Shown here: positions 5,962 through 54,700 of the stretch, piece by piece
Layout of the letters: each line of letters begins with the position of its first letter
How positions within the stretch are numbered: position 1 is the stretch's first letter
Source: Antitrichia curtipendula
Taxonomy: Eukaryota; Streptophyta; Bryopsida; Hypnales; Leucodontaceae
Length of the DNA: 64,000 nucleotides
Assembly (NCBI GenBank): GCA_951230915.1
Contig: OX579636.1
Coordinates: 41,419,912-41,483,911, forward strand
Direction: 5' to 3'
Notes under the pieces: model-generated
The model's input: the letters and a program-made list of their open reading frames with translations, nothing else
Database searches by the model: none
What the model was told of the DNA's origin: nothing
Made by a program: the position numbers and the translations under genes

Positions 5962-6464
5962 ATGGGACCGCCCATGTTGCAAATTATGAAGGCAACAATC
6001 CAGAAAGGTAGGCACTTGGGTGCAGAAACAACAACAGAGTCTCAAGGAAAAGCAGATGCCACTACTATAAAACAGATTGCACACAATGAAAAGCAATTAC
6101 CAAAAAAAATCCAAGGAAAAGGCCTTTTACAGAGGTAAGAGAATTGGACTTGAGTGCCACTACTGCTGTGGAAAATTAGAACATTCCCCTTGAGTGTTTG
6201 AAGAAAATTGAACAATTAATTAAAAAAGAATGTGTCTCTGGGTTGTGCTCTATTGAACAAGGTGGCGCTCTATCCAAGCTCCATTTACAAATGGTTTGCC
6301 GCATTTTGGCATCCTCAGCTACCATGGTAAGTAAGAGCATCAAAAATTACTTCAAATGGGATAAAGCCAAAGCAACCCAAATTGACCACCACATTCTTAC
6401 TAAAACCCTTAGGAACACAAGTTTTCACACTTATGTTGGCATGCTTGGATATTGCATTAAAGAC
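5962..6464 (+). pseudogene. Rep-like (HUH endonuclease, Replitron-like) gene, left half, interrupted by a transposon
   Basis: The readable frame from about 6,140 to 6,464 has an E-x-G-G element followed by H-L-Q at 6,282-6,290. A Y-C-I-K element follows at 6,450-6,461. HUH endonucleases of Rep type carry a His-hydrophobic-His/Gln metal motif and a downstream catalytic Tyr with nearby Lys (YxxK); the spacing here fits. An in-frame TAG at 6,177-6,179 and a frameshift further upstream show decay. The frame is cut exactly at 6,464, the end of an 11-bp direct repeat. The downstream half resumes at 21,637 in the same codon phase. Assignment to Replitron-like elements is inferred from motifs, not from a search. 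Confidence 0.5.
6454..6464. repeat. Target-site duplication, left copy (GCATTAAAGAC)
   Basis: It is identical over 11 bp to 21,626-21,636. Such 8-11 bp duplications are usual for Mutator-like elements. Confidence 0.9.
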
Positions 6465-6575
6465 CAACGACGCTAGTTTGTGAGCCTAGAATTGCGAGCT
6501 TAAGAGCTGTGAGCGTCCATTTTGTGAGCCCAAAGATTGACTTTCAATAACTTTTAAATTTATTAGTGTTAGGAA
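6465..6575 (+). repeat. Left terminal inverted repeat of the giant MULE
   Basis: It pairs with 21,533-21,625 read on the minus strand. Shared blocks are TTGTGAGCCT, a run of spaced GAGC motifs, a TTTGTGA block and GTGTTAGGA, with gaps between. GAGC occurs five times in the first 60 bp, which could be repeated transposase contact sites. Confidence 0.8.
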
Positions 6576-7809
6576 AAAAACCCCGAATATATTTAAAAAT
6601 TCTAGGTAAGAAATAGTGGACCTATGACTGCGGACTTGCGGCCGTGGACCTATTACCGTGGATCTATGAACAGATTCAGAATATGATTTTTTTGCTTTCT
6701 ACACTCTTTATAGGTACATTCAATATATCGAACAATGACCTTTGATTATCCCATATTGATTGGAATTATAAATATAAGCTAATATAAGAATACTTTAGAT
6801 ACATGATTAGGCAAGCTTAAGATCGGCGTGAGTTGACTGCCACCCATCATTGTAGTAGACAATTACATCCCTCTTTACTTTAGGTACTTCATGTTTTTAA
6901 GTTCTAAAAATTATTTCTCATGATGACGTCTATTGCCATTTCATTTATTAATAGGGATACAACACAGAATTGGAATTTTCGAAATAAACTAATGTAAAAG
7001 GACTTAGAATAGTTGTTCACAATACCTGCGGATTAGTGTTAACCCTGTGTAGCACTTGGGGTCCCAGATGAGACACTTTGGACCTCCACATATAGCACTT
7101 GAGGCCCCAATCAAGACACTTGGGCCCACAAGTGTAGCAGTTTTTGTTCCTGCATTTTGGATGATCCTGTGAGTGATTTACAGGATTTAAAATTCAGTGT
7201 TAATCGTGCATCCAGGGGACCAAAAAGATTATCCTTTTTTAGATTGTAATGGGATTCCTAAAGATTTGTGGCAAATATTACTCTCACGAAATTGTGCTTT
7301 TGGTACCGAGACGCCAAATGAAGCCACAAAAGTATGGAGCAGTTTACAAATTTCTCGCTGGATTCTATCGCGAAGATATCCCCCTGAAATTCTTCTTTTG
7401 GTACCGAGACGTCTAATTCGGCCGCTAGACCTTGGTGCAGTTTAGAAAAGATTACTACGGATAAGTGTTAAAAAAACTCCTGAACGGATCATTTTTAGCT
7501 TATATTGTATATTCAGTGTACGTGCTTTGGCACCAAGTCTCTATAAAAATCCAATTTAATGCCATACATGGTTTAGTATTTATGACACATTGAAAGCACA
7601 CATTGCATTCATGAATCACTTTGGAATATGCACAAACAGGTCACAAAAGATAAAAATTGAAATACTGGATATACTTGCATTTTTTTAAGAATCGACAGAT
7701 TCAAGAAAGATGCTCATACATTAAAAGCATTTGCTGCTAATTGGATACATAGAGTCATCCAAATTCTAAGTATTCTAGTATAGCATATTCTAGCCCTCAT
7801 ACTGCAATA
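6576..7809. other. Left subterminal non-coding region of the giant MULE
   Basis: No gene is visible. Short internal repeats are present: variants of gtggacctat with ccgtgga near 6,620-6,665, alternating agcacttg/gacacttgg phrases at 7,050-7,140, and two copies of ttttggtaccgagacg near 7,298 and 7,396. It would form the 3' flank of the transposase gene. Confidence 0.5.
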
Positions 7810-10800
7810 TTAAACATTATTTTTAATCATCCCCGCTAATTGAAGAAGTATCATCACTTCATCCATACTCATGCTTGGAGCATGAATGAACTTGTCTTTC
7901 TTGAAGTCGGACTTGCACAAAAACCGGAAGATGTAATACAAATGTTTGCAATTGACATACTTCCCTCGCTTCCCAATGGATGTAGATATCATACCGGTAA
8001 AGTACAGGCACGTGCAAGCTGGGAAATTGCAGAGACTGATGCGATATATCATGTGGTGAGGTTCTACGCCAGATTGTAGAGTGATGACAGCTCCAAGTCC
8101 CGGATACGGCAAGATGTTCACACCAAGAATAATTCCGGTCACATTCCTGGCACTCTCCCATTGGTTGCGGTGATCATCAGTTGGTGCCCTGTCATTCCTC
8201 CGGATGCTTTTTCCATTCCGAATACATGGGGGCTTGTCAGCATGAGGTGGTCTTGCATAAGTCCATTCCATAACCTCAAAAAGGTTGGAGGAAGTGAATA
8301 GGCGTCTTGGAGACATAGACGGACGTTCCTGGAGGCGGAACCCTGCCTCCTCAAAGAGAATAATTTCCTCAGAGGTGAGGGCCGTGCCAATCAACACTGG
8401 CCAAATATTCGGGATTCGTGGTCGACTAAGGACGTGAGACCTCCTAGGTCCCATCACGCAACGCTTAATGTCGTCCGGGCAGAACCAGAACTCGTCTACC
8501 TCCACTCTTGTGCCTTTGAACTCGCGCTTCTGCCCCTTATACATTGGAGCAGCAGTGGCTCTGGAGCCCCTAACTATGGTCATTTTGCACTTCACTTCTG
8601 TCTGCGATTGAATGGCATGACACTTCTTCTTAGACTTCACAGAAAGACGAGATATGTGCCATTCTGAAGGGTCACAATCAGTCTCAAGTACATGCTTAAC
8701 ATGAGGGATTTCAGGAGTAGCATCAACTTGATTTGCATTTGAAAGATCAGTAGATCTACTTTGCACTCGGGGATGGGAGAAGTTGACCTTGTCCGGGCGA
8801 TGAGAATCACCCTCGGACCCAATAGGTACATCAGCCGGACGCTTAGAGGAACCAAAGACTTCCTCTCCTTCCAAATGAGGTATGCGCGTGCAAACCTCCT
8901 CAGCCCCGGGCATACTACATAGGGCGTCGGTGATTCTCTTTCCATCCATAGATGCAACTGCCCTCTTCAATTTCAAGTCCTGCCTAGATGGGCCAAATCC
9001 AGACGGGCCGCCATTTAGGTACACTCGAAAGTTTGTCATCTGCATAAAAGCTCTCACCCAATCGTCGCATGTCGCGACGTATAAGTCTGTGCCGCGCTTC
9101 CCAGATGCTTGGAGCCACTTGTTGTGTATTGTTTCAGATAAATTGCAAGAAGGCATATCAGCCAATTCATTTGAGGACATTTCCTGCAAGACTTAAAGAC
9201 GTCATATTATATATAACACAGAAATCAAACCTCAGTCTGTAGTCATCTTGAGCAAGTGTGAAGTACTTTAAATAAAGTAAGAAACTAACCGTTTCCATGA
9301 AACCACCCCACTGTCGATATCTGAAGTGCCAGAATGCCAACCAGAGCTCAAGCTCCCTCAGAGATTCAGTAGATGCTGCACCGGACGAGTACCACCATGC
9401 CTTGATCTGCAAGTATTTACTTTCAGCCTCCTCTAATGTCTTTGCATCCTTGTATGATCTACATAGCCGAACATGCTGACATTGCAACTCCCGCTTGATA
9501 AGTCTCTCAGTGTGGTGCTTCATGGAGGTTGCCCAATGAAAAAGGCACGTCCGTTCCCGATCAATCATCTTGTCCTTCGGGTTGCCAGTGCTGTACACGA
9601 TTCGAACAGCATTCCAATTCGCTTGAGCACCATCGGCCATGAAGCCTTTGAAGTTAGGATTCGGGAAGCCGTTCTTCTCCATCACTCGATTAAGGCAACG
9701 CCACATGATGATTTGACCTTTTGTATCTTCTGATTGCATATCGCATACTGCAATTGTCATCACCTTGCAATAGGCAGAGTCGTAAACATGGCAAGCGATA
9801 GTTGTCCAACCTTTGACACGTTTGACATGATCAAACATGAGCCAGGAATTGGCCAGATCTCCTCCTACTTGCATCTGCCTGACGAGGTCGACTCCGCTGC
9901 CTGGGCCATCCACGAGCATCTTGAAAAGGTACACCTTCTCTTGTCCTTGTCCAGGGAATACACTGTCATGAATGAACTCCATTTTCGCTTGTTTTTTCAT
10001 TGCCAATATGCGATCTATCTCCCCTCCTCCACTGCCGGTGTTGCGGAAGGACGCAATGATGTTCCGAACGTTTGGCGAACTGAGCACCTGGAACTTGTCC
10101 ATAACATCATCCAAGGCCTTCCCTCTTAGCATTTCCTTCGGGCCGTCACCTGCATGAACAAGGAATGTGTCCAAAAACTCTTTACTAGCAGCCACTGCAA
10201 TGGCGGACGCTTTAGCAGTAGAAGCCTTTTTTACTTCTTTCTCGATGAGTCCAGAGATGGTGTTAATGGAATCTCTACACAGACCATCTGCGACAAGGTG
10301 GTTATGATTTCCTAGATGAATGCAAGCCCTTGTCATATCAGCCACACCAATAACATAGTAAATTCGAGCGTCACAGAAATTTACACAAGTCGGTGTCAAT
10401 TTGCACACTCTACAAACTACTGTAGAATCTTTAGGAGGATTCGTCCCCACTTGGAATGGAGTACTAGTGTTCCCAATCCATTCTGATTCGTTCCTTTTGG
10501 AACACCTCTTCAAATAATCGCAGGCACTGTTACTGCAAGCCAAGTAACCAGCACAGGAAGACTTCTTAAATTTCAAACCTAAATCATTGTGAATGTTTGA
10601 AGTCATGGTACGACACCAAGTATGACCATCGTAGCGTTTATCCATGCCATTCATGTTCTTAGAAGAACACGAAGAAGCGGATGATGTGCATGGAGGCAGT
10701 TCAAAAATAATATCACCATCGAAACTCGTTGGGAGGAACTGGACCTTCTGGTGATCAGTGGTTTTAAAATTGAGATGGGCTAGCTCATTTCTAGACCCTC

Positions 10801-11449
10801 TAATACTTGCCAGTTTATGGATGCACTGCATCACACTAGGGAATGAACGACCACTTGGATAGAGAGGAGGGCGTGAGAGGTTTGAACTAGCAGGACTACT
10901 TTCACGAAGAGAACAAGACTGAGATGCAGAAGGCATTGTCGAAGTTTCTGGTGGGAATGATACCATTGGAGAACTACGGCTCATATATGACATCCCGTCC
11001 TCGGAGTCGCTTGACAACTCAACTATTGGACTTGAAATTCCCTCTCGAGGTACAGGAACGTTACCGCTTCCCGTCCCATCATATGACTGAAGATGACACC
11101 CTGACTTGACTTTTACTACTCTAAGAAACGGAGCCTGTGCAGTTGATGCATCAGATTGTGGTGTCAACAAACCTGAAGAAGCAGCAATTACATTAGACAA
11201 CAATCCAAATGCTCTGTAACGACCCATTGGCAGAATCCACAAATTCCCTTGGTCAGTTTGAGTCTTAGACATAAGAACAGAGTGAAGAAGACTTCCCGAC
11301 TCTGATAGAATCTCCTCCTCGACGTAGATTGAGCACTGAGAGAAACCATACCGGACGTGAATCAAGTGGCTTGTAATCTCTGCTACACCATCAGCATTCA
11401 GACGCAGAAGAAGAGGAACTTCATGTCCATCAGCTCTAATGGAAGCCAT
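7810..11449 (-). CDS. Mutator-like (MULE) transposase with zinc-finger and SWIM domains
   Basis: Two exons, 11,449-9,290 and 9,183-7,810, join in phase 0 across a GT..AG intron (9,289-9,184), giving 1,177 aa without a stop. I chose the ATG at 11,449 (MASIRADGHE); upstream codons are open but start in AT-rich sequence. Residues 130-220 are Ser-rich. A Cys/His cluster follows at about 299-383 (C299, C305, C310, C346, C349, C355, C359, then HLGNHNH), resembling WRKY-GCM/FLYWCH-type fingers. The MULE DDE core has D540 (LMFD) and D606 (FMADGAQANWNAV), then C635-x2-H638, with a Glu-rich helix at 695-701 likely to hold the third acid. A SWIM finger lies near the C-terminus (C1110-x-C1112 ... C1132-x-H1134). 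It would act in the nucleus, binding the terminal repeats. The intact frame suggests recent activity. Confidence 0.85.
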
Positions 11450-12287
11450 GATGCCACAATTCAAGAAATGAGGCAGTACGAAAAAAAAAATAACAACCAA
11501 AAACCGGCAGACATATCGGTCAGGACTTGAGAACCTAAGACCTGTATATAGAACGAGATCTTTGATGTTCAACTATAACCTTAAAGTAATTTGAATATGA
11601 TTGCACATGAGAATACTCAAATCCTAGAGTAGCGGCGCATACGTTCGAATTAAATGACAGTGAACATGAGATTTTGTGATCCAAGCAATTGTAAATTTTA
11701 GTCTGCACTGACATGTATCAGAGAACCTACATATAGCGCACAATGAAGGCCTTTGATTTCTACAAAATCATAGAAGATATGAATCATGAATACGATCCCA
11801 GTACTTAGACGGAAAGATATTAATGATTTAGACGAATATGTAATTGTGTACGTATAGCGGATGAAGGTGAATAAGGCTATCAATATAATATGAGAATCCA
11901 CTAAGATCAATTTAGGTAACCTAAAAAGAGTTCCCACGGAAACGGATATCCTCCATCAGGGAAATATAAGATTTGTGAATGATAAGTAATGACAATGACT
12001 GGCACGTACTACGATTCATTACGTCAGAAGACAGCCTTCCACCATATAAATGGTAACATCGAGGAATGAAAAGCTCTTTCAAAATTGATGATGATGATGT
12101 CCAGTAGCTTCAAATATAAAGTAGGTCCTGCAGTATGTAATCTTATAGAACTAAAGTAGTGGAGCAGATCTCTTAGATGCTAATGCGACCATCAACATCA
12201 AGCACTGATTCAAGTAGGGGAAAGAGATGCAAGAGAAGAAAAAGTAAGCTGTATTTCTCTACTTCCAGAGAATTAAGGTGATTTAGA
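11450..12287. promoter_or_regulatory. Divergent intergenic region between the transposase and the ParB/methyltransferase-like gene
   Basis: About 840 bp separates two genes that start in opposite directions, so both promoters should lie here. I could not single out a convincing TATA box; the short minus-strand ORFs are chance. Shared control of the two genes is inference from layout. Confidence 0.45.
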
Positions 12288-13214
12288 ATGACTAGGTCGA
12301 AACAAGCACGGAAGGTGTTATTAAGTAGGGATCCAGAATTTGGGACGAGGGAGCACATCCAGGAAGGAACAATCCTCGACAAGCCCCTTTTTGGAGAATC
12401 AGCAAATTCTAATAACCCGTTTATGCAGAGGAATCGTGACGTTGATGAGGCTGCCCAAACGCAGGGCATCATTTCTGTAAGTAAATAAAAAATCTGCGCG
12501 CCAGTCTTACTAAGTTATATGCTAAGTCGATTTGTTTGAGAATTTCCCTGTGTGAGGATGACAGATGCTTGATCTGAATTGTGTTATGCTCTAAATCAAG
12601 GCTGTTCCAGTATGGGAGAAAAATAGTTAGGGGCGCATAACCTTTAAAAAAGTCAAGTAGTGTCGATTCTCATCCACCCGACACCGGACAGAGAGATAGG
12701 GTTCTCAAGTCGATGACGGTACTTCGCTTGAAATTCGAGAACCTCTTCCGATACCTCCACGCGAATTCGATACCTCCATGCTCTTCGTCTCATAGTCAAA
12801 CTGACGACGGATCGAGGTTTTGCAGGCTGCCGAAATGGACACGAGGAGCGGGAGAGCAAATCTTCGCCGCGGGACACCAGCAACCGCCATCCATGTTGTA
12901 CTGCAACAAGATCCCCAAGCGGGGGAGTCTGAGGTTAGTTTCGCTTCCATCCATCCGCTATTCCCCAGGCTGGGACAATCGCTTTGGAATTTGGTGTCGA
13001 GGGGTTTAGGACACGGTGCGATCTTGAGGTTTCGATTTCATGCAAGATGTCCCCGCCCCTGGAACAATCCCGTGAAGATGATGTCCCCTCCGCACGTCCA
13101 GCCTCGCGAGTAAAGGATTAGGGTCGCCGATTAGCGCTGCAGCAAAGGAAGAGAAAGAACCGTCTCTCCTAGGGTTCAGTTTCCGGTATAGCTTCTCGTT
13201 AGGGTTTCTGCGTC

Positions 13215-16200
13215 TCATCGTTGCACCATCTCGGGGCTGATCAGCTCAGCTCCGCGCAGCCTTCACGTGCTGAGGCATCCGTTGGGTCTTGTTCATCGGC
13301 ACGTCAAGCCATCGACTCAACTTTAGGGAGACGGTTATTCGGTCGTGCTTGAATTTCGAGACGACGCACTCTGTCCGGCCAATCCATCGCGCGTATTGGT
13401 CCCACTATATCTGACCCTCGACCATCTTCACGTCGGCGGGAGGGAATCATCCAGGGTCCGCGCTCGGAACAGGTGCCAAAGTCCTTACCCCCCCTTCTGG
13501 TCGTTTTCTTCTTTCCCTTGAGTTACGATTTGTAGTTCACGGTCCTCATCCCGTAAGAGGATCCGGTCGGCAAAGCTCTCGTTAGCGAGAGACGTGAAAC
13601 CAGTGCACCATCTCGGGGCAGTTCAGTTCAGCTGGGCCGAGCCTTTGTGAGCTGAGGCGTCCATTAGGTCTTGTTCCCGGATCCAAAATCCCTGAGTGGA
13701 GCTTTAGGGCGACGATAGATAATCTGCGATGGAATTTTGGGACGAGGCCGCTAATTTAAGTCACTCCCCCGGGCAATCCAATCCCAAGAAATCTGGCCCC
13801 GCCATAGCGTCTCGTCGGCGAGAGAGAAATTGCCAAGCTCCCCTCTCGGGATAGGTTCTAAATTCCTTACCCCGCATCTGGTCGTGCTCGTCTTTTCTCT
13901 CAGTCAGAAATTGCGGTTATCGGTGCTCATCACGTAAGTGCACCCGTTCGGGGAAGATCTCTTTAGCGAGAGATGTGAAACCAGTGTTCCGTCTCGGGGA
14001 TGATCAGTTCATGTGGCCCGAGCCTTCACGAGCAGACACGTCCAACGGGTCTTGTTCTCCGCCACCATATGCCTCAACTCAGCTTTAGGGTGACGATTGT
14101 TTTTCGGTGACGGAATTCCGGGACGAGGCTCGCTGGTTTACGCCACTCGCTCGCGCGTATCATTCCCAAGAAATCTGACCCCGCCAGAGCGTCTCGTCGG
14201 CGAGAGAGAACCTGCAAGTCTCACCACTCGGGACAGGTGCCAATGTCCTCACCCCCGAGTCTTGTCGTCGTCGTTTTTTCTTTGCGTCAATATTTATTTC
14301 TTCATGGTCTTCTTCCCGTAAGTGGAATCAGTCGGGAGAGCTCTCGTCAGCGAGAGACAGGACAAGAGATCACCATCTCGGGGCTGATTGGTTCAGCTGG
14401 GCGGATAATTCGTGAGCTGAGGCGTACATGGGGTCCCGTTCTCCGCCACCGTATGCCTCCTCTCAACTTTAGGGGACGATAGTTTCGTTGTGACAGAACA
14501 TCGGGCCGAGGCACGCTGGTTTCAGCCCTCCCTCGCGTGTATCGTTCCCAAGAAATCTGACCCCGCCAGAGCGTCTCGCTGGCGAGAGAGGAATCGCCAA
14601 GCTCCCCGCTCGGGACAGGTTCCAATGTCCTCACCCCCACTTCTTAACATGGTTGTTTTTTCTTTGAGACAGTAATTGTTGTTTACGGTCCTCTTCCCGT
14701 AAGTGGAGTCGGCCAGGGGAGCTCTCGTTAGCGAGAGACTAGAAACAAGATCACCATCTCGGGGCTGATCAGTTCAGCTGGGCCGAGAATTCGAGAGTTG
14801 AGGCGTCCGGGGTTCTCTTTAACCGCCACCATATGCCTCAGCCCAGCTTTATGGCGACGATAGATTTTCAGTGACGGAATTCCGGGACAAGGCACTCTGG
14901 GTTCAGCCACTCCCTCGCGTGTTTAGTTCCCAAGGAATCTGACCCCGCCAGAGCGTCTCGTCGGTGAGACAGAACCTGCAAGGCTCACCGCTCGGGAAAG
15001 GTGCCGATGTCCTCAAGGGTGGTTCTTGTCGTGGTCGTGTTTTCCTTGAGTCAATATATATTGTTCATAGTCCTCGTCCCGTGAGTGGAATCGATCGGGG
15101 GAGCTCTCGTTAGCGAGAGACAGGACACAGGATCACCATCTCGAAGCTGATCGGTTCATCAGGGCGGAGAATTTGTGAGCTGAGGCGTCCATGGGGTCCT
15201 GTTATCCGCCACCATATGCCTCCCCTAAGCTTTAGGGCGACGATTGATTTTGTGTGATGGAATTCCGGGACGAGGCACGCTGGTTTCAGCCTCTCCCTCG
15301 CGTGTATCGATCCCAAGAAATCTGACCCCGCCAGAGCGTCTCGTCGGCGAGAGAGGAATCGCCAAGCTCCCCGCTCGGGATAGGTTCCAAAGCCCTCACC
15401 CCCGCTTCTTAACGTGGTCGTTTTATCTTTGAGACAGTATTTGTTGTTTACGGTCCTCTTCCTGTAAGTGGAGTCGGCTAGGGAAGCTCTCGTTAGCGAG
15501 AGACAAGAAACGAGATCACCATCTCGGGGCTGATCGGTTCAGCTGGGCGGAGAATTCGTGAGCTGAGGCGTACATGGGTTCCCGTTCTCCGCCACCGTAT
15601 GCCTCCTCTCAACTTTAGGGGACGATAGTTTTGTTGTGACAGAACATCGGGCCGAGGCACGCTGGTTTCAGCCTTCCCTCGCTTGTATCGATCCCAAGAA
15701 ATCTGACCCCGCCAGAGCGTCTCGTCGGTGAGAGAGGAATCTCCAAGCTCCCTGCTCGGGACAGGTTCCAAAGCCCTCACCCCCGATTCTTGTCGTGGTC
15801 GTATTTTCTTTGAGTCAATAATTTTTGTTCCCGATGCTCTTCCCGTAATTGGAATCGGTCGGGGGAGCTCTCGTTAGCGAGAGACAAGAAACAAGATCAC
15901 CATCTCGGAGCTGATCAGTTCAGCTGGGCGGAGAATTCGTGAGCTGAGGCGTTCGGGATTCTCTTTATCCGCCACCATATGTCTCAGCCCAGCTTTATGG
16001 CGCCAATATATTTTCTGTGACGAAATTCCGGGACGAGGCACGCTGGTTTCAGCCTCTCCCTCGCGTGTATCGTTCCCAAGAAATCTGACCTTGCCAGAGC
16101 GTCTCGTTGGCGAGAGAGAACAAGCAAGGCTCCCCACTCAGGACAGGTTCCAAAGTCCTCACCCCCGATTCATGTCGTGGTTGTAATTCCTTTGAGTCAA

Positions 16201-16340
16201 TATTTATTGTTCACGGTGCTCAGCCCACAAGTAGAATCGGTCGGGGGAGCTCTCGTTAGCGAGAGACGTTAAACCAGATCACAATCTCGGGGATGATCAG
16301 TTCATATGGCCCAGTCCTTCACATGCTGAGGTGTTCTCTT
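13215..16340. repeat. Tandem array of about eight 382-bp units with paired palindromes
   Basis: The palindrome CTCTCGTTAGCGAGAG marks each unit at 13,576, 13,957 (degenerate), 14,341, 14,722, 15,104, 15,487, 15,868 and 16,250, so the period is 381-384 bp. A second palindrome-like element (GTCTCGTCGGCGAGAG) recurs with the same period near 13,808, 14,190, 14,572, 14,954, 15,336, 15,718 and 16,100. Units also share the phrases ccatctcggggctgatcagt, accgccaccatatgcctc-like and cccaagaaatctgaccccgc. The array is GC-rich compared with its flanks and lies between exons 2 and 3 of the cargo gene. Small ORFs within it are repeat shadows. Confidence 0.92.
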
Positions 16341-16779
16341 GATCCCGTTCTTTGTCACGTTCCAAGTACCAATAACTTCCGTCATCTCATGAACGAGAGA
16401 AACAACTCTACCCCGCCTTAATGGAACACACACGATCAGTTTAGGCTTCTTCAATTAGGACTTGGTTTCTCTACCATGTCCGACTGATCTTAGCTAATCT
16501 ATGTTGTTCTCCTCTTTCTTGAATGTTCCAGTGTTGTCATTCACCAGTTTTAATCGGCTTAGAACTAATTCCTCTTCGTAATTCATGTACATTACTCAGA
16601 TGGTGGAGGTACCAGAAGAGAATATGGTCGGAGGCACTGCAATAACCGAAGAGGTATAAATCGGGAGCGAGTTATTCCTTCTCGTGTTCTTTGTAATTTA
16701 CTCACTTAAGTTTGTGTATCACTGTGCGTTTTCTGGTTCGATCTCAATCCTTACATTCTTGTGCTTGTATGTTGAAAAG

Positions 16780-17714
16780 GGTATTGTCATCTCGGCATCA
16801 GCAGCTCCTACATCGGATCAAACACTATCTGATGACCAACCTCAGATACTGGGTTCCGACGAGGCAGATGGGGATATAGGCGAGGGCTGTGTACCAGATT
16901 CGGGGAAGTTTGCGGGAGGTGAAGATGCTATACGGGCAGCGTAGAAGTTGGATTTTGTGAATACAATATCCAGTTTGCGTATTGCACCGGCCAATCTCTC
17001 TCGCATGAGAATCCCCTTGTGCCGTCTGGTGCCCATGCCTATGGTGAGGCCTACATTGTCTTGTGACTTGACTAAATTGGAACATGAGTTCGTCCATGGG
17101 TATGAGGAGGGAGCTCGTGTTTTCTATGTGTCGGTTTCAGATGAGGAGGGGCGCTCGGGAGTGTTCTCAGATGCAGAGAAGGTCGACTGGGTCCCCTTTG
17201 GAACATTGTCAATGATGATTTCAATGTCCAGTTGGGGGAACTTCCAGAGCTCCAAATTCCGGTAGATGCAAAATTCTACGTGTGCGACGGCAACCACAGG
17301 CGTATAGCATGGATGCGACATATTTCTCGACTGCATGGTGATGAATTGGATTGGCACATAAGTGTGGATTCAATCATTTTGGATACCAGAGGACGAGTTG
17401 GAGCCACAATGCAGGTCATGCATGACATCAACAAGTGAGTCTCATTCCCATTTCATAATTTAATGTTTGTAGTGTTTTCCTTCAGGCCCACCTAAAACTT
17501 AACTTGACCTTTTTTTCTCTTTAGGCACACCGAAAATTCGCACGTAAAGACTAATCTGGTGCATACATTGTATCGAGTTCGGAAGTACGGTACCCTGCCC
17601 ATTGAGAAGTTCAATGACCTTCTTAGTAAAGAGGAACAGAAGACCTGCCAGCAGAACATACGGAAGACCTGGTACTCCATGCCTCTTGAGGTCTTCACGT
17701 CTTTCATTTTTCAG
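16780..17714 (+). CDS. ParB/sulfiredoxin-like domain exons of the cargo gene
   Basis: The signature is D-G-N-H-R-R-I-A-W-M at about 17,283-17,315. It matches the G-x-x-R-x-x-A box of ParB N-terminal/Srx domains, which in ParB bind and hydrolyse CTP or act as nucleases. It is preceded by a strand-like VDAKFYVCDG and followed by HISVDSIILDTRG and VMHDINK, then a helical exon (KFNDLLSKEEQ). In bacteria and phages ParB-like domains are found attached to DNA methylases, which supports the fusion. The exon has a TAG at 16,942 and needs one extra C near 17,195 to enter the domain frame. Function in a plant transposon is unknown. Confidence 0.65.
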
Positions 17715-19629
17715 GTAAGATTTTGTTTTATGCTTCTGGTTTTTCTTGTCTGGGCTGTTTATCACATTTTCAACTCCATTTCATGTTCTCATGTACCAGA
17801 AATTGTCTAATGTGTTAACTGAGAACAATTTTTTGTAGCAAGAGATTGCGGTAGCTTCGGACCTTGCTGTCCGCAAGTATCATGAAGACACACCTACGGA
17901 GGAGGTCACGAACGAAGGCGTGGCAGCAGCTATGCGTGTTTCTACCAGGGATGCAACTGGTAATCTCTACAAAAAGCTATCCAAGATTGTCGCCGTCGCC
18001 AACCCTACGTTAGGTGATGAGTGGCTGCTGGAGGTATTTCTTCTGTTCTATTTTGTTGTTCTACTTTTTGGCTGAGCTCTCCTCCTCTCCACTTTAGTGA
18101 TTGATTTTCATCAGGTTTTGAGTTCACTAAACTGATTTTGCTTCTTATTAGATCGAACGACACTGGAGTCTGTATACTGTTCCGGAGCTGACCTTGGACA
18201 AGCTACAACTAATAGCTACATCAAATGCTCATGTCAACCACAAGGTGAAATGGTTGAAGTGGATTAATTCATCCGCTCCCACCCGTGAGGCCCGACGCTT
18301 TCCACAGCGTCCAGCAAATGACGACAAACTCAATGCTTTCTTATCGAAGGCCTGTTGGTATGCTGCGGTATGTTGTTCATATGCATCGTGCATTTCCATC
18401 GCATTTATCGATTTCTCTTATTTAGTTTGAGCCATATTTGACTAATCTCTTGTCAATTCTACAGATTGAGGATAAAGCCTCTGAGATGTTTGACAGCATT
18501 ATCCGAGCCGACAACATTCAGGTGCATATGGATGTAGCCGCGGAGCCTGAGTCTATTCAAGAATACATAGAAGGTTGGCGGATGAGGTTGTGGGAGCATG
18601 CGTTCGTGGGAGTGTTTAAGGGGGCCGACGCCTTCAAGAAGTCAGACTCGTTTAAAGACTTCAAAGGCTCTATCCTTGTGGTGAAGAGGATAATTTATAG
18701 GTATTTACTTTGCCTCTTTGGGTTTTGTTGGATATTGTGTTGAGATTGTTATTCCTTTAATCATCTTTTCTTGATGAATTGTTTATGGTCCTCCAGGTAT
18801 TTCAAGTTTGAATTGTATGCAAAGAAAGCCATCGCCAAGGCTGATTTGCCGCCTTTCCTCAACACATGGCTCGATCGCTCATCTCCCGACTGTATGTTCT
18901 CGGCTATTCAAGTGAAAAATTGGACCAGCGGTCACCTCCAAGCCGGTGCTTGGTATTTGGAGTGCAGCCAGGGTTACATCCCCCCCCAGGAGTTGGCTCT
19001 TTTCAGCAATATCAAGGAAAGTGCAGTGGTAGAGCCCGAGTTTGACGAATTTGCTGGTATGGACGGTGAAGCACGGGAGAAGGCCATTAAGAGGCGTGAA
19101 ATATCCGATAAGAAAAAGAAGATGAAATGGGAAGAGGCAATGAAGAGGACGGAGGAGACAGCACAGAAGAAGAAACTACGACAAGAGGAAAAGGCCAAGG
19201 AAGATGAGGCCAAGGGCAAGCAAAAGGGGAAGAAGAGGAAAGCAGAGACACCAAATGCCGAACAAGCGACAAGTGATGGCCCTATGAAGGAGTCTTCATC
19301 AGGATTTTCGCTCACCCAGGAGCGCTTGATGCGTGGCTTGCCGCTCCATGTTGTTGACTTGGATTCGGTGGCTCCTGTCGATCAGTGCATCTTGAATGAG
19401 TCCGTCTCTAGTTTACTTGGAGTCGACAATGGTCCTTCTCCTGGCGTCATCGATTTTGTTGTGGCTTTTTTAAACAAGGTGGTGCCTCTTTTTCCTTGTA
19501 TATTTCCTTTTTGCTTGTACAGTTGTATGGTTTATTTACAAGTTTCTAGACGTTGCCCTGATTTTTGCTTCGTGTTCATTAAATTCTGAGATTCTTTTTA
19601 TTTTATTTGTAGAGGAGGTTCAATCTCCT

Positions 19630-19712
19630 TGTTTGTTAGAATTGGTCGGGGTCCAGAACGTTGTTGTTTATAGTGTTCTCTCGTCGCCGAGATGAAACCA
19701 GTGGAAGACTAC
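19630..19712 (+). repeat. Stray fragment of the 382-bp repeat inside an intron
   Basis: It reads ggtcgggg, then ctctcgtcgccgagatgaaa with ccagtgg. The array has ctctcgttagcgagagacgt with gaaaccagtg. This partial copy lies in the intron between exons 9 and 10 of the cargo gene. Confidence 0.55.
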
Positions 19713-19965
19713 TCTTGCAATGACACAATGTTTTATATCTATGCCATCGCGTCCCCACTTCAGATGTTCTTTGTTTATTTCATAGAGTCACCAATTAGCC
19801 TTGAAATGGGTAAGTCTAAATTTTATTATGAATCCTACTTGTGCAAACTTTCACTTATGGATCCTAGACAAGATACTAACAATGTCATTGAATATTTTCT
19901 TTTCGGATTTTGTCTCCTTTGGTCTAATTTCTCTCATTTTCTTTGCCGTCTTTTCATGTGTGCAG

Positions 19966-20984
19966 CATGCCGCCGGCAAGGATCGATTCTTTGACAATGC
20001 TTTGGCCAAGCGTCCCGCTGTCAACTTGATTGTTGTTGATGTTCCAGAGGGCCTACCTATTCCGGGCATTTCCAATCCAGAAGCCTCCGTTCCATACTGG
20101 AATCAGTTCTCGGAGGAAAAGCTTCAAGCCGTCTTTGACTTTGCTGATACCTTTCTACACGACGGGGGGGGCTTCTTGTTATGTACCCATACAGCCGACC
20201 CGTCAAGTCATCCGTTGTTAGTCTCGCCAAATCATTTGGTTACCATTTACAGATTGATTGGTTCGTCATGAATAGGCTTCACCTGGCTCTAGCCTCGGAC
20301 ATCTCCAAAACGGTAAAATCCTAAACCATTCTATGATTTGGAGGTTTTAATCATAAATTTGATTGTTTTCGCCATCTGATATAATTTTGTATTTTTGTGC
20401 AGACTATGCGTTTCAACATGTCCCTTTATGTCAAATCTCGGAGTGGAAGTTCTAAATCCAAGTTCACGTTCCACTTCCTTCCTGCTCACGAAGCAGTTGG
20501 CGTCAACGTAGCCAAGGATGATGTTCTCCAGAATTGTTGCGGGAAGGACGATGTGGCAATGAATGGCAACATTGCCTGGCGTGGTCCTCGGGAAAAGGAT
20601 CGTGCCTTCATGCAGATGCTTGTTGAGGCAACAACTTTGCCTGGTGACGTTGTCATGGACTGCACCGCGTCTACAGGTTAGATGTTCTAGTTTGTTTTTT
20701 TCCGATGAAGATTTTTTCACGCTCTACTCTCTTTGTTGAATTCTAATCCGTCTTCTTTTGTTCTCTCTATATCATTGCAGGGGCAAGCATTTATGCTTGC
20801 CGAGCTACTGGTCGCCACATTCTAGCCCTGGAAGAAGATAAGGCGATTTTCATGGCCTTGCTTGCTCCTCTCATTCGTATACCTGTGAACGCAACACCTG
20901 TACCTATGCTCCCTGCTCCTCCTGTTGCTGACCTTGACGATGAAGAAGTGGAGGTCCGCCATATTGTGAAGACCTCACGATTTA
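19966..20984 (+). CDS. Beta-class DNA methyltransferase-like domain exons of the cargo gene
   Basis: Motif order is IV-like then I-like, as in beta-class amino-methyltransferases (N4/N6). In exon 10 the strand NLIVVDVPEGLP stands where active enzymes have D/N/S-PP-Y/F. After a G-run frameshift (20,164-20,171) the frame reads LLVMYPYSRPVKSS. Exons 11-12 carry an AdoMet-site-like segment, LPGDVVMDCTASTGAS followed by ALEED, which parallels GDxVLDPFxGSGT..E. Because the catalytic PP-Y and the F-x-G-x-G residues are both changed, normal methyl transfer is doubtful. It may have become a DNA-binding or AdoMet-sensing module. The assignment is from motif pattern only. Confidence 0.6.
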
Positions 20985-21532
20985 GTAAGTTTGCCTTTAT
21001 TTTTCTTAATTCTTTCTATGTGATTTCATTTTCTCATCCATACTAATATTCTGTTGTGTCCCTATTTGTAGGCAACTTGCGCAGATGAAGGATTCTACCC
21101 GTAAATCTTGTTTTGCAGATCCTGCATTCTTCCGAAGCCCACCTAGACCGTTTCAGCTTCCGTTGTATGCTGAGGCAGTAGCTAGACAATTCCTGAGCCA
21201 TGACCCTAAACCGCCTTCTAGGATCAGCTCCATAGATCCTCGTGTTCTGATGTTCATAGATGACTCCACTAAAGAGTCTGATGGTCAGTCATCAGACTCT
21301 GATGAGAGGTCTACTTCCAGATCTTCTAGCAGTATTCTTTATGAAGATACTGCATGACACTTCTCTGCTATATCTTAGTATAGCTGTGATACATTTTGAG
21401 GACATATTATGTGGTATTTTTTCCCGTTATATGATATACCGCCCCATTTCATATTTACAATGCTTTCATTTTTTTATTTTTTTATGTTCAAAATTATAAT
21501 TCCACCCTAAATCCTGAATCCACGGTCATGGG

Positions 21533-21625
21533 TCCTAACACCTATAATCACTGAAAATTACTTCACAAATTGGAGGCTCCTAGGCTCCTGGGCTCAGGCT
21601 CCAAGGCTCACAATATAGCACCCCC
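21533..21625 (-). repeat. Right terminal inverted repeat of the giant MULE
   Basis: Read on the minus strand it begins GGGGGTGCTATATTGTGAGC and continues with four more spaced GAGC motifs, matching the left end. On the plus strand this is the conspicuous run of AGGCTC repeats at 21,573-21,610. Confidence 0.8.
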
Positions 21626-21636
21626 GCATTAAAGAC
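21626..21636. repeat. Target-site duplication, right copy (GCATTAAAGAC)
   Basis: It is identical to 6,454-6,464. The codon frame of the interrupted Rep-like gene passes through it unchanged. Confidence 0.9.
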
Positions 21637-22375
21637 AAAGGAAAAGATCATTTTGACTATGTGCATTGCAATGTCACCCTTGAACAAATAAGGCGTTGAA
21701 GAGTATGTGAAGCATGGCATTCCATTTGCAAAGAACAGAGTTATATTGACTCACAAGAACCTCATTGAGAGGGTTGCGTCATTCTTCAAATATAAAATGA
21801 AGAAACAATTGGGAAATACTCTTCTCAACGATGTTGCGATCTGGGCAGTCTATGCCCTTGGCATTGTAGGTGCTACTTGTTTGCCAAGGTGGAATGGAGT
21901 ACAACAGAGCCTCAATGCTCTGGAAGTGTATGATGCAACCAGATAGTATCACTATGGAAGATGTGACTCAAAAAAATTTTAAGTACACAAATATAGGATC
22001 TTGGCTTGCATACTTGGAGTGCAAAAGACTAGCATCAAACTTGGATGATGCTCGAAAAGGTGCACAATGCAAGTATGCGATTCCAAGTACTCTCCTATCC
22101 AATGGTTTTTCTTCTGAGAATTTTGATGATTTTTGTTTTGTTATATGTGGCTTCAAAATGACATTTTTCCTTACTTGTAGGAACTATTTTGGGTGAGGCA
22201 CAACAACAAGTGGACAATGTCATTGTATTTGATGATAGTGATTATGGGATTGCATGTCCTATATAGTTGGCGGAGAGTGAGAGTGAAGATGGTGCAAAAA
22301 GTGCATGTGCTCTTATATTTAATCTAGTGGTTTACGGTGACCAAGATGCACTTAATAGTCTTCTAGTGTAATTAT
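21637..22375 (+). pseudogene. Rep-like gene, right half (downstream of the transposon)
   Basis: From 21,637 the frame that ended at 6,464 continues for about 20 codons to a one-base frameshift near 21,685. It then runs as EEYVKHGIPFAKNR and KNLIERVASFFKYK with helix-rich content, shifts again near 21,890 (NFKYTNIGSWLAYLECKRLA), and ends in an acidic stretch to about 22,365. The C-terminal part has no domain I recognise. The several frameshifts and an in-frame stop near 22,265 show it is dead. The pairing with 5,962-6,464 rests on the shared duplication and frame phase. Confidence 0.55.
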
Positions 22376-54335: not shown

Positions 54336-54383
54336 TGCAATGCCTCTTCTCAACACCTGCACGCTGCAATCACTCCGCAAACA

Positions 54384-54700
<317 letters not shown>

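Follow-up and report, generated by a model that had tools for sequence, protein, structure and literature searches.

The segment from 6465 to 21626 of the window (the whole stretch of 64,000 nucleotides of Antitrichia curtipendula that was analysed) is a transposon with two divergent genes. It is best explained, with somewhat more belief than doubt on our side, as a Mutator-like element whose second gene encodes an accessory protein, which would bind the palindromes of an array located between the genes and thereby counter silencing by the host. A preliminary description had proposed a cargo-carrying Mutator-like element with a ParB-like and methylase-like second gene, and this is supported by the analysis reported here.

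Boundaries and insertion site

The boundaries were assigned by comparison with other copies of the element in the same genome:

6465..21626: whole transposon, 15,162 bp (both ends common to nine of ten sister copies and to the subfamily copy C7)
6455..6464: target-site duplication, left copy, CATTAAAGAC (comparison with sister copies)
21627..21636: target-site duplication, right copy, CATTAAAGAC (comparison with sister copies)
6465..6490, plus strand: left imperfect terminal inverted repeat, followed by TGTGAGC repeats; a similar start is found in the relative on contig 218
21601..21626, minus strand: right imperfect terminal inverted repeat (comparison of end against end)
6180..6464, plus strand: left part of the interrupted host frame, a replitron HUH frame (PF21859 profile)
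21627..21699, plus strand: right part of the same frame (PF21859 profile)

The left end begins with CAACGACGCTAGTTTGTGAGCC and the right end, read inwards, with CGGGGGTGCTATATTGTGAGCC. The terminal inverted repeats are imperfect, with 17 of the first 26 bases being identical, a match that was equalled or exceeded by 8 of 200,000 random pairs drawn from the element. The inverted ends proposed previously are thereby borne out, and both ends are present in nine of the ten fetched sister copies of 97–98% identity. For the tenth copy, C1:37.30, only the left end lies within the 19.8 kb fetched, and its second gene is 22 kb off.

Both flanking GCATTAAAGAC copies were found as described, but what had been taken for a perfect 11-bp duplication is one of 10 bp, the 11th base being the terminal G of the element itself. 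Since a G follows CACCCCC in 10 of 11 copies regardless of the sequence of the left flank, the transposon was set to 6465–21626. All 11 copies with both ends seen, the window included, possess a 9–10-bp target duplication of their own.

The element has a GC content of 45.8% in comparison to 30% in the flanks. Judged by the PF21859 profile, the insertion target is a replitron Rep frame with an HUH domain. On its own, the left flank reaches a score of 40.3 bits, whereas both flanks joined reach 60.2 bits over profile positions 11–120 of 128, so that the replitron model spans the junction with a gain of 20 bits, in agreement with the earlier claim that the host frame resumes across the duplication. 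By eye, the interrupted Rep frame in these AT-rich flanks contains an additional frame break just downstream of the junction, and a Ty3/gypsy-like reverse transcriptase/RNase H fragment lies at 446–688 in the AT-rich flank. A further feature of the window is a 314-bp run of the AG dinucleotide at 54383–54696 (157 copies).

The family and its sister copies

A search of the own genome with a piece of the transposase yielded at least 42 matches, at least 32 of them over the whole query. Among the matches listed, 14 full-length ones have an identity of 97–100% and 18 of 92–93%, and two partial ones at 74% are located on contig 218. Ten of the 13 other copies of the 97–98% group and one copy of the 92–93% group (C7) were compared. 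In the sister copies both genes lie inside the common boundaries, so that the outcome named previously as a refutation, boundaries that leave out either gene, did not arise.

For the pairing of the two genes, 40 transposase places (42 rows listed, two second pieces dropped) and 40 second-gene places (41 rows, one 41-bp piece dropped) were used. Among the matches listed, 35 of the 40 transposase places have a second gene no more than 50 kb away with the side and strand expected, and 31 of the 32 full-length places are paired at a distance of 5.8–28.6 kb. At the unpaired full-length place, C6:24900109, the N- and C-terminal parts of the second gene are kept and the middle is missing. Four more transposase places are without a match to second-gene DNA, namely two partial copies and both places on contig 218. 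At one of the latter (the C218 relative), comparison at the protein level revealed a second gene that is likewise divergent from the transposase gene. The transposase of this relative is 72% identical on amino acid level and its second gene 40–80% depending on the piece, some pieces spanning introns. In several lineages, the second gene is a regular constituent of the element.

For three second-gene places no transposase was found among the matches listed, and one of these is L031 (C9:8566000–8572500). This diverged copy has lost the intergenic space together with its palindromes, and its second gene adjoins a transposase fragment.

The transposase gene

Inside the element the following features are located:

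7810..11449, minus strand: putative Mutator-like transposase gene, 1,177 amino acids, exons 11449–9290 and 9183–7810, open in this copy
13222..16350: tandem array of 382 bp between the divergent genes, with TCTCG-N4-CGAGA 15 times at zero or one mismatch
16600..21357, plus strand: second gene, 11 exons, about 1,100 amino acids, broken in this copy
16600–16653, 16780–17434, 17525–17714, 17839–18033, 18152–18367, 18465–18700, plus strand: exons 1–6 of the second gene
18797–19478, 19966–20312, 20403–20676, 20781–20988, 21072–21357, plus strand: exons 7–11 of the second gene
17205..17434, plus strand: ParB-like part with the motif CDGNHRRIAW (motif and sub-threshold DndB match)
19966..20988, plus strand: methylase-like part, exons 8–10 (DVPEG at the motif IV position, DCTASTGAS at the motif I position)
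19679..19692: single palindrome TCTCG-N4-CGAGA within intron 7 of the second gene, a site shared by 8 of 11 copies

The transposase gene contains one intron of 106 bp, as seen in comparison with homologues, and among the 12 copies examined it is uninterrupted in that of the window only. Previously, it had been called an intact MULE/SWIM transposase. Here, the large minus-strand gene is open indeed, but neither Pfam MULE (PF10551) nor SWIM matched any of 18 sequences at E values up to 10. These are the protein of the window and 17 homologues from metagenome or assembly contigs, which cover exon 1 and show no Pfam domain; exon 2 with the SWIM region is covered by the protein of the window alone. 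Solved structures in the PDB and the viral collection gave no match to the transposase either. Among the sequences reaching these positions, 13 of 14 have D540 and 11 of 11 have D606, and CxxHW is present in 9 of 9. In exon 2, a SWIM-like CxC(19)CxH and the E in CNLSE..HNKW were recognized by eye. These residues presumably correspond to those of Mutator transposases.

According to a survey, Mutator-like elements have target-site duplications of 8–11 bp (PMC6446971), a range that includes the 9–10 bp found in each of the 11 copies for which both ends were seen. Some MULE groups have no terminal inverted repeats; here they are present with 17 of 26 bases identical. Based on duplication length and motifs, the superfamily is most probably Mutator-like. 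That the element belongs to another DDE superfamily would fit the missing Pfam and solved-structure matches (0 of 18 sequences for Pfam). The 9–10-bp duplications and the motifs (D540, D606 and CxxHW, together with the E and CxC(19)CxH seen by eye) argue against it, and we regard it as very unlikely.

The second gene is conserved but its methylase motifs are altered

The second large gene with ParB-like and methylase-like parts, as described before, was recovered as a multi-exon gene on the plus strand. In its splice model the GT-AG sites hold in nearly all copies, and exons 10–11 were set by the copies C7 and L031. The copy of the window carries an in-frame stop and a frame break in exon 2 and a frame break at the poly-G of exon 8, the two frame breaks being of a single base each. 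Under the splice model, every copy examined (11 of 11) has a stop before exon 11. The poly-G run of exon 8 (20164–20171) varies in length and make-up, from 8 to 23 bases in the 10 copies read.

The only homologue among 7,993 candidates scored is the Ceratodon purpureus protein P0018, with 31% identity over 89% of the query. P0018 matches PF01555 with 30.4 bits at a cut-off of 26.7, and this model matches all three members of the second protein, that of the window with a score below the cut-off. Furthermore, a profile of three sequences matches CcrM over positions 688–902 (215 positions, E 3e-4), with motif IV followed by motif I, and in NCBIfam and PHROGs P0018 is matched in its methylase part only. 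The ParB-like part displays the DGNHRR motif and a weak, sub-threshold match to DndB; no match to Pfam ParB or to a solved structure was obtained for it. Searches of the viral collection and of prokaryote genomes with the second protein gave no match. An alignment search for further homologues found none at E values up to 0.001, and since it missed P0018 too, it is uninformative.

Active amino-methyltransferases carry (D/N/S)PP(Y/F/W) as motif IV and FxGxG as motif I. At the motif IV position, the second protein deviates from this consensus: all 11 copies have DVPEG, as does the C218 relative, whereas L031 has DVPKG and the Ceratodon protein DTPFD. At the position of motif I stands DCTASTGAS, from which a single copy differs by one change. 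Compared with the consensus, both methylase motifs appear altered, yet the domain is conserved. Due to these deviations it is doubtful to speak of a DNA modification module, as was done initially, although a methylase-like domain is present.

Between the window and C7, the second gene shows a dS of 0.265 and a dN of 0.034 (dN/dS 0.129), and the transposase a dS of 0.165 and a dN of 0.036 (dN/dS 0.219). For C7 against nine other copies, the dN/dS of the second gene is 0.129–0.159. Divided by parts, it amounts to 0.125 for the N-terminal and ParB-like part, 0.094 for the middle, 0.146 for exon 7, 0.125 for the methylase and 0.189 for the tail. Purifying selection acts on every part of the second gene. 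Inside the 97–98% group the ratios are higher (0.28–0.74 for the second gene, 0.36–0.56 for the transposase), as expected, because copies decay after insertion. Such decay is also contained in the values between the groups, and therefore the true constraint is probably stronger.

A palindrome kept in dissimilar arrays

The array lies between the start codons of the transposase and the second gene; its palindromes had not been mentioned in the preliminary description. In the window, 17 matches to TCTCG-N4-CGAGA with at most one mismatch were found versus 0.98 expected, a number reached by none of 100 shuffles. Fifteen of them are inside the array, at distances alternating between about 149 and 233 bp. 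In the remaining 58,860 bases of the window there is one exact palindrome, the one in intron 7 listed above.

In C7, an array of nearly the same period is present, its unit consensus being 58% alike to that of the window. Outside the array the likeness of the two copies is 82% in the spacer towards the transposase gene, 75% in the other spacer (170 bp compared) and 89–90% at the ends. The best conserved 24 bases of the array unit contain the palindrome.

The palindrome was discovered in the window and C7, so that contig 218 and the copies L035 and L036 serve as independent tests. L035 and L036 form a third group and are 94% alike. The array of L035 has a period of 387 bp and showed no blastn match over 100 bp to the arrays of the window and C7; the intergenic regions of L035 and L036 hold 16 exact palindromes each. 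In the C218 relative none of the arrays of the other groups is present, and seven exact palindromes are located between the genes. With near matches included, seven consecutive sites (three exact, four with one or two mismatches) follow each other at 136–140 bp. Separately, intron 6 of the C218 second gene (L033 2774–3069) contains three palindromes at distances of 139–143 bp, one exact and two with one mismatch.

Altogether, the five intergenic regions hold 12, 13, 7, 16 and 16 exact palindromes; in a Markov control with 300 sequences per region the mean was 0.003–0.027 and the maximum 1. Among perfect inverted repeats with 5-bp arms and gaps of 0–20, TCTCG with a gap of 4 ranks first in all five regions. 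No palindrome was found in the terminal 300 bp of either end, nor in L031 with its lost intergenic space. Hence, the sequence of the array differs strongly or wholly between lineages while TCTCG-N4-CGAGA is kept.

Proposed mechanism and alternatives

In the proposed mechanism, the minus-strand gene encodes the transposase, which presumably recognizes the TGTGAGC-rich ends, and insertion of the element produces the 9–10-bp duplication. The product of the plus-strand gene would be an accessory protein belonging to the ParB-like/methylase-like class that algal transposons are known to carry. This protein may bind the palindromes as a dimer via its ParB-like part, possibly together with the middle part, and, by analogy to VANC on VANDAL elements, the bound protein might keep the promoters of the element active against silencing by the host. 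The altered methylase domain would probably be used for binding or for sensing of SAM, not for methylation. Several observations weigh against this reading: the DndB match of the ParB-like part is below threshold, the second gene is interrupted in all 11 copies and these show decay of the methylation type, L031 contains no palindrome, and Pfam MULE does not match the transposase. A more far-reaching version can be put forward only tentatively, as we consider it unlikely in its full form: a parS-like array and its own ParB-like clamp in a eukaryotic transposon, the clamp loading at TCTCG-N4-CGAGA and spreading along the element, a catalytically retired methylase domain keeping silencing off, and array and protein co-evolving. 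If so, the body of the array would be free to turn over while the palindrome stays fixed.

The most serious alternative, rather unlikely in our opinion, is that the palindromes serve the divergent promoters, with either the transposase or a transcription factor of the host binding to them, and that the second protein acts elsewhere. The position of the array between two start codons would fit this, and no direct tie links the site to the second protein. On the contrary, no palindrome lies in the terminal 300 bp at either end, the place at which a transposase has to work, and this makes the transposase the less likely binder. Moreover, extra sites occur in intron 7 (8 of 11 copies) and, as a short series, in intron 6 of the C218 relative, and ParB and VANC are precedents for pairs of a site and a protein. 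It could also be assumed that the second protein has methylase activity on N6-adenine or N4-cytosine and marks the DNA of its own element, as proposed for an Ectocarpus protein. The domain is real, judged by the PF01555 score of P0018 (30.4 versus 26.7 bits) and the CcrM match (E 3e-4), and its part of the gene is under purifying selection (0.125). Motif IV (DVPEG, DVPKG or DTPFD in place of (D/N/S)PP(Y/F/W)) and motif I (DCTASTGAS) nevertheless speak against catalysis, and this makes an active methylase improbable; the Ceratodon form may be active, because it has kept the aromatic residue in DTPFD.

That the element picked up the second gene by chance as a passenger, or that two elements lie side by side or nested, is hardly credible and was rejected on the basis of boundaries, pairing and dN/dS. 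Many Mutator-like elements do pick up pieces of genes, the second gene is broken in this copy, and three second-gene places are without a transposase match among the matches listed, including L031 next to its transposase fragment. Against this, common ends and duplications enclose both genes, the genes co-occur in several lineages and the second gene has a dN/dS of 0.13. The preferred reading is that of a two-gene transposon with an accessory protein acting at the palindromes.

Comparison with known systems

The closest known arrangement is the 21.5-kb element Sola1-1_Ec32 of Ectocarpus, in which a 1,104-aa protein with ParB-like and N4/N6-methylase domains is encoded opposite to the transposase (PMC12477816). 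Similar proteins of green and red algal transposons are cited there, and it is suggested that these proteins bind and mark their own element. The moss element resembles this in the similar size of the protein, the two types of domains, the location inside a giant DNA transposon and the strand opposite to the transposase. In contrast, the carriers described there are Sola1 and, in red algae, giant EnSpm elements, and the carrier here is a putative Mutator-like one; in addition, altered methylase motifs and a palindrome array are described here.

In the VANDAL elements of Arabidopsis, silencing is removed by an accessory protein, which binds to non-coding repeats that diverge fast (PMC10398659). 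The likeness lies in a Mutator-like element with an accessory gene and in non-coding tandem repeats that diverge fast but retain a short motif, although the VANDAL targets are short motifs and here a 14-bp palindrome is found. To our knowledge, VANC is neither ParB-like nor methylase-like. Bacterial ParB proteins carry a DGNHR-type motif, and their parS sites are palindromic, about 14–16 bp long and present in several copies. Both traits recur here in similar form, but no Pfam ParB match was obtained and no ParA partner was seen.

Genes of chromatin- or DNA-modification type are carried by other transposons as well, MuDR included, with other enzyme families: SET histone methyltransferases in Phytophthora MuDR and oomycete HarbingerS elements, and TET/JBP in fungal transposons, as given in PMC12730594. 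The second protein of the window differs from these in the type of its domains. Retrotransposons with cytosine methyltransferases have reportedly been found as well (PMC5890265).

Among the matches listed from titles and abstracts of the open literature, no ParB-like or DNA-methylase gene was found in a Mutator-like element, nor was a palindrome array together with a ParB-like protein in a transposon. The words methyltransferase and methylase are absent from the main text of the Mutator survey (PMC6446971). The preliminary description regarded the system as unfamiliar. This holds for the Mutator-like carrier, but the pairing is not new in kind, since ParB-like/methylase accessory genes have already been reported from algal transposons (PMC12477816). 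New would be the putative Mutator-like carrier, the altered yet conserved methylase motifs (DVPEG, not DPPY) and the palindrome kept in dissimilar arrays. To the algal picture this adds selection on the gene, an altered yet conserved methylase centre and a candidate target site, by which the suggestion of binding and marking becomes testable with one protein and one 14-bp site. It also hints that prokaryote-type systems of a site and a protein may serve transposons against silencing by the host.

Probable traces of host silencing

The decay of the copies suggests that they were methylated by the host in the plant-type manner, because it is biased to C-to-T changes in CG and CHG contexts. Any protection was thus not lasting, given this footprint and the fact that none of 11 copies has an uninterrupted second gene. 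Of the differences from the majority sequence, 361 of 472 and 356 of 495 are changes of the type C-to-T or G-to-A, and per site their frequency in CG and CHG is three to four times that in CHH.
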